This document shows, in pieces, positions 789-63,864 of a stretch of DNA of 64,000 bases. The position numbers were made by a program, and so were the translations under genes. Source of the DNA: Ptychodera flava (Eukaryota > Hemichordata > Enteropneusta > Ptychoderidae). Numbering within the stretch: position 1 is the first letter of the stretch; each line of letters opens with the position of its first letter. The notes under the pieces were generated by a model. It was not told the origin of the DNA. It ran no database searches and saw only the letters and a program-made list of their open reading frames with translations. The stretch covers positions 25,782,674 to 25,846,673 of the forward strand of contig NC_091933.1 in assembly GCF_041260155.1 (NCBI RefSeq), in the 5' to 3' direction.

Positions 789-3029
789 GGTCTCTTGTAA
801 TGGTAGTTGGGCTGGTTGGAAGCGGCAAGTCCTCCTTACTGTCCGCCATTTTGGGAGAAATGACCACTACATCTGGCATGGTTCAGTTCAACAGGTAAGC
901 ACGGCGATTCGGACAGCTAGTCAGATTACTGCGATCAGACTCGTCAGTTAACGGAAGCAATATTCAAGAACGATTTTTCATAAAGTGGCTGTTTCTGCTA
1001 TATATATTGATATTACTGTAGATTTAAAGATAAACGAGCCCTTTTGTGATATACCCAAAACAAATAACAGAGGAACATAACTAACTTCTATCGATATATT
1101 ATTGGAAAAGTGTAACAAACCCTCCCGGTAGTTCAAAGAAAATCAGTATTGACGTCTTATTTATTTTGCAGAAAGAAAAACTCGGTCTCCTATGTTCCAC
1201 AGAAACCATGGATACAAAATACCACATTACGGGGCAACATCCTATTTGGTGAAATCTTTGACCAGAAAAGGTAAAATTTCTCTATTTCGATTTCACAAAT
1301 TACAAAGAGTGAGTCGTGTAAATCAAGCTTCCAGGCGATAGATCAGTATTACATAGTAAAGTTAAGATCAAACTTTCAGGTAAATTTATTTTCCCGAACA
1401 TCGAAGCTGATGAAAAATACTAATCCGTTTACAGGTATTACCATGTTATGAAAACAATAATGAATACCCGTTCGTTTTCTTGTATCAGATACACCGAAGT
1501 TATTGAGGCATGCGCACTACAACCAGATATTAACATGCTGCCAGCTGGGGATATGACTGAGATTGGCGAGAGAGGTATCAACCTCAGTGGAGGACAGAAA
1601 CAACGAGTCAGCATGGCCAGAGCTATGTACAGGAAAACAGATACTCTACTCTTGGTAATTGCTATGCTATGATTGACTGATATTGCCATGGACACCCGGG
1701 CCATGGCAAATCAGGAAAGGAAGCCTCTTGGGATCTTATAATCCATGTGCTCGGCTAGACATGTGAACGGAAATTACGATTACCGAAATTCGTCGTTGAT
1801 AAACGGTATTGATCAGATAATTTTTCGGAAAAATATGTCAACATGTCAACGGAAATTACAATTACTTAAATTCGTCGCTGAAAAATTGTATTGAATAATT
1901 TTTCGAAAAAAATATAACATTTAGGTGTTTTCGCTTTACCGAATGGTTTTTGTGGCAATTGGCTGGGAAAGGATTTGACCATCTGCGATAAAACAAAGAC
2001 CAACAGACAACGTATTCTTTATTCTTGTTTCATCCCAGGACGATCCTTTCTCGGCTCTGGACGTTCACGTTGGTTCACATCTCGTTAAACACGGGATTGT
2101 AGATATGCTTGTGAGAGAAGGTAGAACGGTGATCCTGGTTACACACCAACTGCAATATCTACACTTGGCAAACAAGGTAACGGTCTGTTGTAGCACCTGT
2201 CGGACAGTTGGAAATGCCTTTACAGATGGCGTCTAAGAAAACTGGATGATTATTTTTTTTTTCATTATGTAGATATATTGGTCCTGTAAAAAAGAATATT
2301 ATGAATGCATATCTGCATACAATTGGTTTCAAAATATGTTGTATTAAAAAGAAATATCCTGAGTACAGGTATGAGTCACGAGCCTGAATTAAGTCATCTA
2401 AACTTACCACAATAGCACAAATACACTTCCCCTAGATATTGGCAATGATTTTTGAGTTCACGAAAGACCGATTCGAGAAATACTTACAGTTCGTCTTACA
2501 GTGCTATCATTGTGACACCAATTGCCGTGTAATGTTTAACTTCTTCTTTCCATACCATAACTTTTTAAATATATTTCTAAGACAGTAATCATAAAGGATC
2601 TATAAAATTCATTGCGTTTTTTTTATTCAATTAAAGAAAACATAACTGTTACACAAGCCTCACGGAGTGTCTGAATCAATGGTTACGCCATAAGACTTGC
2701 ATTATACCAATGTGTCGTAACTTTAAAATAACAAATATTATGCAACACACAGTATTGCATTAAAGACGTCAACCCCTCACTGTGTTCTAACCTAACGCAG
2801 GTGGTTCTGATGGATGACGGCAAGGTGGATAAAGAGGGCAACCTTAAAGAAATACAGCTACATGACCCGGACCTGTTCGCAGATTGGCAAAATGAATTGC
2901 GTGTACTTTCGGCGTCTGAAAAGGACATCGAATCAGAGGATGTAGATGTCCTTAATGCAGAAGAAGAAAGACTGGAACTTGGACAGTGTGTCTCCAGCAA
3001 AGGAACTCAAGATAAATTGTCTAGAAATG
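789..3029 (+). other. ABCC8/9-like: gene A NBD1 exons 12-16
   Basis: Exons: 789-894, 1172-1270, 1489-1654, 2039-2176, 2801-3029. They hold Walker A (GLVGSGKSS), the Q-loop (YVPQKPWIQ), the signature LSGGQKQR, Walker B ending [11 protein letters not shown] and the H-loop VTHQLQY. Walker B is followed by Asp rather than the catalytic Glu, as is usual in ABCC NBD1, so this ATP site is expected to hydrolyse poorly. The last exon ends in an acidic linker ([12 protein letters not shown]) leading to TMD2. Each exon border was set by AG/GT and by phase continuity. Confidence 0.9.
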
Positions 3030-62600: not shown

Positions 62601-63864
62601 AATGCCGCATACAAAATAGTTGTCTGAGACATACAACAAAAATTACAATTTCAGTTTCAAATAAACTTTCAGAATTTCAAACGGATTTTTATTACATGCC
62701 TCGTATATCGAACGTCGCGTGCTTCATAGGATTCAATGGTAACTCGTCGATGACGTCGCAGGCCGCATAGTCATCATTGGACTGAAAGTGAACCGCAACT
62801 ATTTTCAACTTCACAACTTTTTTATGTAAAAATGTCGAAATTTCATGTTTTGCACAGGAAATCCGCTTTTGGAAAATTTTGCAGAAAAAAAATTGACAAA
62901 CCGCATAACAGTAGTCTAAATATATCATTGCGCCATTCGATGATGAAAAAAGTACCATTGTTAACGGATTTTCGTCTGAGATGGAAATAAAGCATTGGAT
63001 TATCATTTGCCAATAAATTTAAATATTTTGAGGGAAAACTGTGTAAGAGAGGCATGTAATAAAAACATTATATCCCAAACATGGGACTAAGTACCCTGGG
63101 GCAGAAGACCAGTCGCCCTCCTTACGTCGGGCAAATGGTCACCTGCCCTCGGGCACATAGTCCCATGTTTGGGCTATCATATATAAAATATGCCAAACCC
63201 ATCAACATGGCGCTTTTCAATGATTTCTGTGGTCCACCACGCATCAATCTGATTAAAATCAAATGTAATTATTGCGACTTTCCATTTTCTTTGCTGTCTT
63301 TTCCAGCTGACAGTCGCAACTATTACAGCTAAACGAGCAAAGTAATAAGGAAGCCAAGGTGGTAACGTCACAGTCAGTACATCAGATTTAATCAGATTGA
63401 TCTCGCATATACAAAACTGGTTCATGGGTGGAATATAGGCCCAGTCGTGTAGAAACGGCAAAGCTGGTACATGCACTTGTGACGATATACTACCTCCAAC
63501 AGAGTGTCGTAAGATTGAGAAAAAAATCAGTATTATTTACATGAAATTACTGATTAAAGTCTTTAATACAAGATGGAATCCCATCATGAGGAACATACTG
63601 ATCTTGTTGTGCGATGCCATGCATAGTGTTTAACAAGGTGTTTGTCCGATTATTGATTCATGTAAATTCAAGTACAACTTTATGGAGCTAAATTGTAAAT
63701 CTTACAGTTGATTTTCGAATGATCAATAGGTTGTCGTCGTCATTACACTGTTATATTACGAAATGGGCGTGTCCGCTTTGATTGGTGCGGCCTTTATTCC
63801 CGTTTTTGGCGTTGTGCAATACAAGATTACAGATATTTTGGCAAGGCTGAAAAACCTCATACTG
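58130..63864 (+). CDS. ABCC8/9-like: SUR-like ABCC transporter, gene C (5' part, exons 1-6)
   Basis: First 483 residues of a third SUR-like protein: TMD0, L0 and the start of TMD1. Exons: 58130-58705, 59384-59620, 60291-60485, 61243-61392, 62277-62432, 63730-63864. Every exon has the same length and phase as in gene B. Exon 1 differs from gene B at about 25 of 192 residues, mostly in loops, and keeps the N-terminal sequon (CDNSTHC). The ATG chosen (MASSEQTC) matches gene B; a longer upstream frame lacks conservation. Intron 5 starts with GC. I see no defect. The rest lies beyond the right edge. Confidence 0.92.
60568..60908. mobile_element. ~340-bp MITE in gene C intron 3
   Basis: The left end AAGGTAGAATGCGCCTCGGG and the right end CGAGTCGCATACTACCTT are imperfect inverted repeats. 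Gene B intron 3 shows the empty site: GAAACTTCGTTTGATAGCAT against GAAACTTTATCG, insert, AATAGTGTTG in gene C. The insertion is therefore younger than the B/C duplication. A related end is at 5890 in gene A. Confidence 0.7.
62433..62438 (+). promoter_or_regulatory. GC splice donor of gene C intron 5
   Basis: The exon ends CCAATAATG and the intron starts GCAAGA, as in gene B. The next exon continues in phase 0 with [11 protein letters not shown]. Confidence 0.72.
63073..63172. repeat. 100-bp fold-back element
   Basis: Left arm CCCAAACATGGGACTAAGTA and the reverse complement of the right arm (CCCAAACATGGGACTATGTG) match and continue with GGGCAG-x-GACCA to about 45 bases, leaving a short loop. 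Gene B intron 5 lacks it. Confidence 0.8.
63234..63412. repeat. MITE-like inverted-repeat element, ortholog of 32903-33092
   Basis: GCATCAATCTGATTAAAATC on the left and GATTTAATCAGATTGATC on the right are inverted repeats. Same position and content as in gene B intron 5, hence inherited from before duplication. Confidence 0.65.

Follow-up and report, generated by a model that had tools for sequence, protein, structure and literature searches.

Head-to-tail SUR-like ABCC genes in a 64-kb stretch of the Ptychodera flava genome

SUR1 (ABCC8) and SUR2 (ABCC9) are ABCC proteins that serve as the regulatory subunits of KATP channels. In vertebrates, SUR genes adjoin Kir6 genes, and sea-urchin ABC surveys are said to include several SUR-like ABCC genes. 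One study (doi 10.7554/eLife.24149) describes SUR as an ABC protein with a K+ channel gating function and without any transport activity known for it; it proposes that L0 and TMD0 carry the NBD state of SUR1 to Kir6.2. The genes reported here resemble SUR1 and SUR2 in their TMD0-L0-TMD1-NBD1-TMD2-NBD2 plan, their SUR-like TMD0, an identity of 39–42% and their NBD motifs, including a 15-residue SUR2 stretch in NBD2. Unlike SUR1 and SUR2, they form a tandem array, differ at most of nine ligand-pocket residues and at several TMD0-Kir6.2 contacts, and have no Kir6 within 64 kb. With MRP1 (ABCC1) and other long MRPs they share the domain plan with TMD0 and the NBD asymmetry, but MRP1 is only 34% identical and falls outside the clade described below. 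Arthropod SURs, known to us by description, are likewise non-vertebrate SUR-clade genes with TMD0 (Daphnia, Tetranychus). Those descriptions set them apart from the present locus: in passages of five surveys, on Daphnia, Tetranychus, Lepeophtheirus, Tigriopus and Lygus, a single SUR is named in each (PMC2680897, PMC3724490, PMC4587908, PMC4247197, PMC4234516), compared with at least three in tandem here. Among the listed titles and abstract openings of open-licence PMC papers, we found no description of a tandem SUR array.

We analysed a window of 64,000 bases, which contained no N and had a GC content of 35–40% in 4-kb steps. Gene models were built by protein-to-genome spliced alignment, using SUR1 on the middle gene first and then the middle protein on all three. 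Three ABCC genes, here called A, B and C, were arranged head to tail on the plus strand. Copy A (789..17570) was represented by its 3' part, 19 exons that run from the Walker A motif of NBD1 through TMD2 and NBD2 to the stop codon, the rest lying beyond the left window edge. Copy B (29063..54639) was modelled end to end, from ATG to stop, as 30 exons encoding 1582 amino acids with TMD0, L0, TMD1, NBD1, TMD2 and NBD2. Copy C (58130..63864) was represented by its 5' part, six exons for the N-terminal 483 amino acids (TMD0, L0 and the start of TMD1), and continues beyond the right window edge. SUR1 alone gave 36 tblastn matches at E < 1e-3, and each of them lay inside or overlapped the three gene spans, so the array is not a product of chance. 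A first-pass annotation of this DNA had proposed at least three same-strand tandem copies; spliced alignment and copy-to-copy comparison confirmed this, and the limits it gave, 789 and 63864, coincide with the outermost exons in our models of A and C.

Self-comparison revealed two pairs of collinear pieces, 685-18422 with 37315-55477 and 28842-34138 with 57909-63997. The duplicated block takes in about 220 bases 5' of the start codon, as judged from B and C, and about 840 bases 3' of the stop codon, as judged from A and B. The 5' flank of B (28842..29062, plus strand) recurs upstream of C at 57909-58129 (blastn, 28842-29886 against 57909-58966, 85.3%), and the 3' flank of A (17571..18422, plus strand) recurs after B at 54640-55477 (17346-18422 against 54416-55477, 73.9%). 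Exon junctions agreed in position and phase at 17 of 18 sites between A and B, the exception being a damaged junction in B, and at all five sites between C and B. The identical exon layout that had been ascribed to the three copies therefore holds pairwise through B; it does not extend to A against C, which are non-overlapping halves with no common residues. For the same reason, a three-copy tree is impossible from this window. All 18 introns of A were GT-AG, and its sole stop was the last codon. The 29 introns of B, one of them assumed, and the five of C were also GT-AG except for one GC-AG intron, which was found at the same place in both copies (32597 and 62433). One further exon of B, the TMD1-NBD1 linker exon at 36213..36419 on the plus strand (VLDSSEV...HNRNKRN...), is known from B only, and a search of the window returned no second significant match to it. 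SUR1 carries an RKR ER-retention motif, and the linker exon has an RNKR stretch near the corresponding position.

We considered whether the array might be an assembly artefact in which haplotypes of a single locus were placed end to end. Because the two copies cut by the window edges, A and C, are halves without overlap, the window alone does not fix the number of independent loci, which leaves some room for this explanation. Against it, A and B differed at a proportion of synonymous sites (pS) of 0.216 over 836 codons (dS 0.254, dN 0.061), and C and B at 0.194 over 483 codons (dS 0.225, dN 0.067). Taking the best aligned piece of each intron, we obtained 3493 columns with 21.8% mismatches from the 14266 intron bases of A compared with B, and 2328 columns with 17.1% mismatches from the 4286 intron bases of C. 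Most of the A/B intron sequence could not be aligned, and intron lengths and repeats differed between the copies. We know of no animal whose heterozygosity reaches this divergence, which together with the unequal intron lengths makes collapsed haplotypes unlikely. An artefact is thus hardly credible, and the real tandem duplication assumed in the first-pass annotation is upheld by synonymous differences of 0.19–0.22 and by alignable introns that differ at 17–22% of sites.

The same comparisons yielded dN/dS ratios of 0.242 for A/B and 0.297 for C/B, and values per domain ranged from 0.17 (NBD1, A/B) to 0.40 (L0, C/B). The overall ratios of 0.24–0.30 show purifying selection on the copies, as pair averages since duplication and not as proof that each copy works today.

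In B, one splice junction is damaged. The acceptor that reads TTTTACAG/GGCGAACTC in A, with the exon starting at 6005, reads TTTTACCG/GTCGAACTC in B, and the acceptor AG is gone: the CAG that ends at 6004 in A is CCG in B. Lacking the acceptor used by A, B requires a cryptic splice to keep its frame. In-frame, stop-free pairs with donors between 40120 and 40290 and acceptors between 41380 and 41640 numbered at least 12. Among the 12 listed, the top-scoring pair (donor 40218, acceptor 41393) would add about 44 unmatched residues that A does not have, and the others scored below zero. We adopted the third pair, donor 40192 with acceptor 41529, because it alters few residues; both of its sites are weak in scoring, and the ends of the resulting intron (40193..41529, plus strand) are an assumed in-frame alternative. 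Since this splice is unproven, our length of 1582 amino acids and the earlier figure of 1584 residues both depend on the assumed junction. The description of the middle copy as complete stands as far as an end-to-end model can be drawn, and its length remains conditional on that splice. A 4-base exon at 40401 and a 37-base exon at 36097, both produced by the spliced aligner, were rejected as artefacts. A coding sequence that combined the 36097 exon with the CG acceptor was also discarded, as the frame was lost and stops appeared.

The junction may reflect an error in sequencing, splicing at a cryptic site or the recent decay of B into a pseudogene. That B is a recent pseudogene within an otherwise working array would fit the CCG at A's acceptor and the 12 listed substitutes, which score poorly or add about 44 residues. 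However, the 30 exons of B contained no further stop or frameshift, the remaining introns were GT-AG or GC-AG, the low dN/dS argues against a pseudogene, and a sequencing error or a functioning cryptic site would account for the junction. We regard a pseudogene as unlikely.

We then compared the copies with known ABCC proteins. Among the best 60 of 578 matches to solved structures, the full B model scored 1083 bits against SUR2B and 1071–1077 bits against full-length SUR1 chains; the next score, 786 bits, belonged to a plant protein entered as ABC transporter C family member 2, followed by ABCC2 at 781 bits and MRP1 at 768 bits or less. Within those 60 matches, the margin of full-length SURs over the best other ABCC was 285–297 bits. 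Exon 1 of B (29063..29638, plus strand) comprises the whole of TMD0 and matched Pfam TMD0_ABC at 27.6 bits against a cut-off of 27; the longer ORF that surrounds it (29033-29647) reached 32.4 bits. Exon 1 of C (58130..58705, plus strand) also comprises the whole of TMD0, and its ORF (58025-58714) matched the same model at 30.1 bits. All ten matches of the C ORF to solved structures at E up to 1e-3 were to SUR1 or SUR2. MRP1 also possesses a TMD0, and the MRP TMD0 was absent among these matches.

In a maximum-likelihood tree with ABCB1 as outgroup, B grouped with SUR1 and SUR2 with UFBoot values of 99–100 under three models and with the untrimmed alignment. The tree comprised seven sequences (B, SUR1, SUR2, MRP1, MRP4, CFTR and ABCB1), without ABCC2, 3, 5, 6, 10, 11 and 12 and without an invertebrate SUR. 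By region, the grouping of B with SUR received UFBoot 96 for L0 plus TMD1, 94 for NBD1, 89 for TMD2 and 93 for NBD2. The branch to B was about 0.75 long in the LG+F+G4 tree. Trees built without an outgroup do not show to which of the two sides, SUR or MRP, B belongs. With constraints that fixed the group of interest only, the AU test on the trimmed alignment rejected B with MRP1 (p 2e-6), B with MRP4 (p 4e-26) and SUR with MRP1 (p 5e-7), and also B with the MRPs and CFTR (p 0.033) and B basal to the rest (p 0.025). The SH test rejected three of the five alternatives and kept the last two (p 0.23), in both of which the rooting separates B from the vertebrate SURs. A version of the SUR hypothesis in which MRP1 and MRP4 were forced together failed the AU test (p 0.005), and two other trees, B with the MRPs and CFTR and B basal, were retained; we set this run aside as mis-specified, because the data contradict MRP1 with MRP4.

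Single residues were also counted. At 495 columns where SUR1 and SUR2 agree and MRP1 differs, B shared its residue with the SURs at 175, with MRP1 at 78 and with neither at 242. For the four core domains, the counts for B were 137 SUR and 64 MRP1 of 367 columns, compared with 76 and 107 of 363 for MRP4 as a control.

Could the copies be ordinary MRP-type ABCC transporters that merely resemble SUR? Several observations lean this way: the 34% identity of B to MRP1 and MRP4 is not far under its 39–42% to SURs, and the C-terminal part alone scored 479–493 bits against SURs and 477 against ABCC2, a gap of 1 to 15 bits that separates them poorly. The separating columns of L0 were even (10 SUR and 10 MRP1 of 33), and the top NCBIfam model was MRP_assoc_pro, yet far under its cut-off (897 against 1470). 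The tree tests weigh against an MRP-type origin, as do the TMD0 ORF that matched SURs only and the full-length margin, and we consider such an origin very improbable. We thus place the copies, from their sequences, on the SUR side of the ABCC family, as a deep branch. The SUR-like identity given in the first-pass annotation thus gained support from the tree, the AU test, the bit-score margin and the TMD0 matches. A grouping with non-SUR ABCC proteins, named there as the outcome that would speak against it, was not recovered in the seven-sequence tree, where both AU and SH rejected B with MRP1 and B with MRP4. The array and its SUR-side placement, taken alone, are in our view close to secure.

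Walker A and B, signature and catalytic residues were intact in A and B. Both showed an asymmetry between the NBDs: NBD1 has the DDP form, in which Asp follows Walker B, and NBD2 has Glu. This is also found in SUR1, MRP1 and MRP4 and is therefore not diagnostic. The TMD0 contact residues named in doi 10.7554/eLife.24149 were mixed. E128, L40, L31 and P133 were kept in B and C, the first two being present in MRP1 as well, and F132R, P45V/S, K57L, A30I and F27Y/D were changed. For the C6-C26 disulfide, C6 aligned to Cys and C26 to a gap, and the copies have three Cys nearby. At the L0 position that corresponds to K205, one alignment placed a gap and a second one Lys. An AlphaFold prediction of TMD0 from two sequences had a mean pLDDT of 44.

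For the ligand pocket we used nine glibenclamide-pocket residues, R306, Y377, N437, D1193, S1238, T1242, N1245, R1246 and R1300, in the numbering of doi 10.7554/eLife.31054. TMD2 numbers in our SUR1 row were one below those of the paper, as inferred from its S1238/S1237 remark, and the D1193 assignment depends on this shift. In B, two of the nine were kept (D1193 and R1300), compared with three of nine in MRP1. A kept the same two of the six residues it covers, and C kept R306, one of the three it covers. A vertebrate-type pocket of nine residues was thus absent from the alignments of A, B and C. According to the same source, SUR2 keeps 10 of 12 pocket residues, and the TM16 Arg (R1246) is conserved in 11 of 12 ABCC homologues (doi 10.7554/eLife.31054). 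The TM16 Arg position was His in A and B. The lasso W232, which is Trp in SUR1, SUR2, MRP1, MRP4 and CFTR, was Ser in B and C. Other changes were Y377H and N437W in B and C, and S1238R, T1242F and N1245F/Y in A and B. In these alignments the ligand-pocket residues hint at a changed function, and a departure from vertebrate SUR features outside vertebrates is not in itself strange.

The first-pass annotation had also stated that Kir6 is absent from the 64 kb. With Kir6.2 as the query, tblastn found no Kir6-like sequence in the window and nothing better than E = 1.2, in agreement with that statement. From sequence features, regulation of a channel appears the likeliest role for the copies, probably as ATP-sensing regulators of a Kir channel with altered drug binding. 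On this reading, at least two tandem duplications of a SUR-clade ABCC gene took place in the animal's ancestry, and every copy codes, or once coded, for an ABC protein made up of TMD0, L0 and two halves that each consist of a TMD and an NBD. One site may hold ATP without hydrolysis, and the other may hydrolyse ATP or bind MgADP, as in SUR. L0 and TMD0 would then relay the NBD state to a partner protein, which is most likely an inward-rectifier K+ channel whose gene lies elsewhere. Tissue or ligand may differ from copy to copy, and one splice site of B may be defective. The whole statement, tandem SUR-clade duplication at least twice with a Kir-regulating role, seems to us slightly better than evenly balanced. 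The lack of Kir in the window, the two of nine pocket residues in B and the mixed TMD0 contacts appear to count against the channel role.

A serious alternative, close to the changed roles raised in the first-pass annotation, is that the channel role was lost. The copies would then be SUR-derived but gone from the KATP channel; they would either transport a different substrate or regulate a different channel, and their ligand pocket would have been remodelled. The His at the TM16 Arg in A and B, the Ser at W232 in B and C, the five further pocket substitutions, the retained catalytic residues of NBD2 and the lack of Kir6-like sequence in the 64 kb are all consistent with this. On the other hand, TMD0 is kept and SUR-like, and the same changes may be normal outside vertebrates, as our yardstick was vertebrate SURs. 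We judge this departure possible, at well under an even chance. A narrower form, in which a local SUR-derived family rebuilt its pocket around the His for the TM16 Arg, left KATP and now moves a metabolite or gates another channel, is more doubtful still. Regulation of a Kir channel is retained as the preferred reading. A tandem set of SUR-clade genes in which the pocket is changed and the ATP sites are intact offers natural material for asking which residues serve Kir6 binding and which indicate that transport was regained or retained. Their interest is tied to the question of how SUR's switch to K+ channel gating arose; if the copies are plain duplicates that serve the same channel, the array is a routine gene-family expansion.

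Scans of the window for tRNA and Rfam families were empty. Two N-terminal TMD0 peptide patterns matched 33 stretches in viral contigs, none of which was a relative. The A-B spacer (18423..28841) gave no match to the B protein or Kir6.2; by Pfam, repeat search and self-comparison, it consisted of repeat DNA with minus-strand LINE-like ORFs. Of ten of its ORFs compared with Pfam, three gave a match and seven gave nothing. LINE-like ORFs at 21840-22975 (minus strand) carried RVT_1 (5.6e-22) with an adjoining ALKBH8_N (2.9e-15), and 26861-27103 (minus strand) showed a weak match to Integrase_p58_C, below the cut-off and perhaps a retroelement remnant. An intron of B contained a composite repeat (43451-45404) with tandem units of about 181 bp on both sides of a segment of about 630 bp, and the segment and the array were each found singly between A and B, at 18981-19595 and 25264-26456. 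Imperfect inverted and tandem repeats with a foldback-like arrangement occupied 48598-49450 in a B intron.
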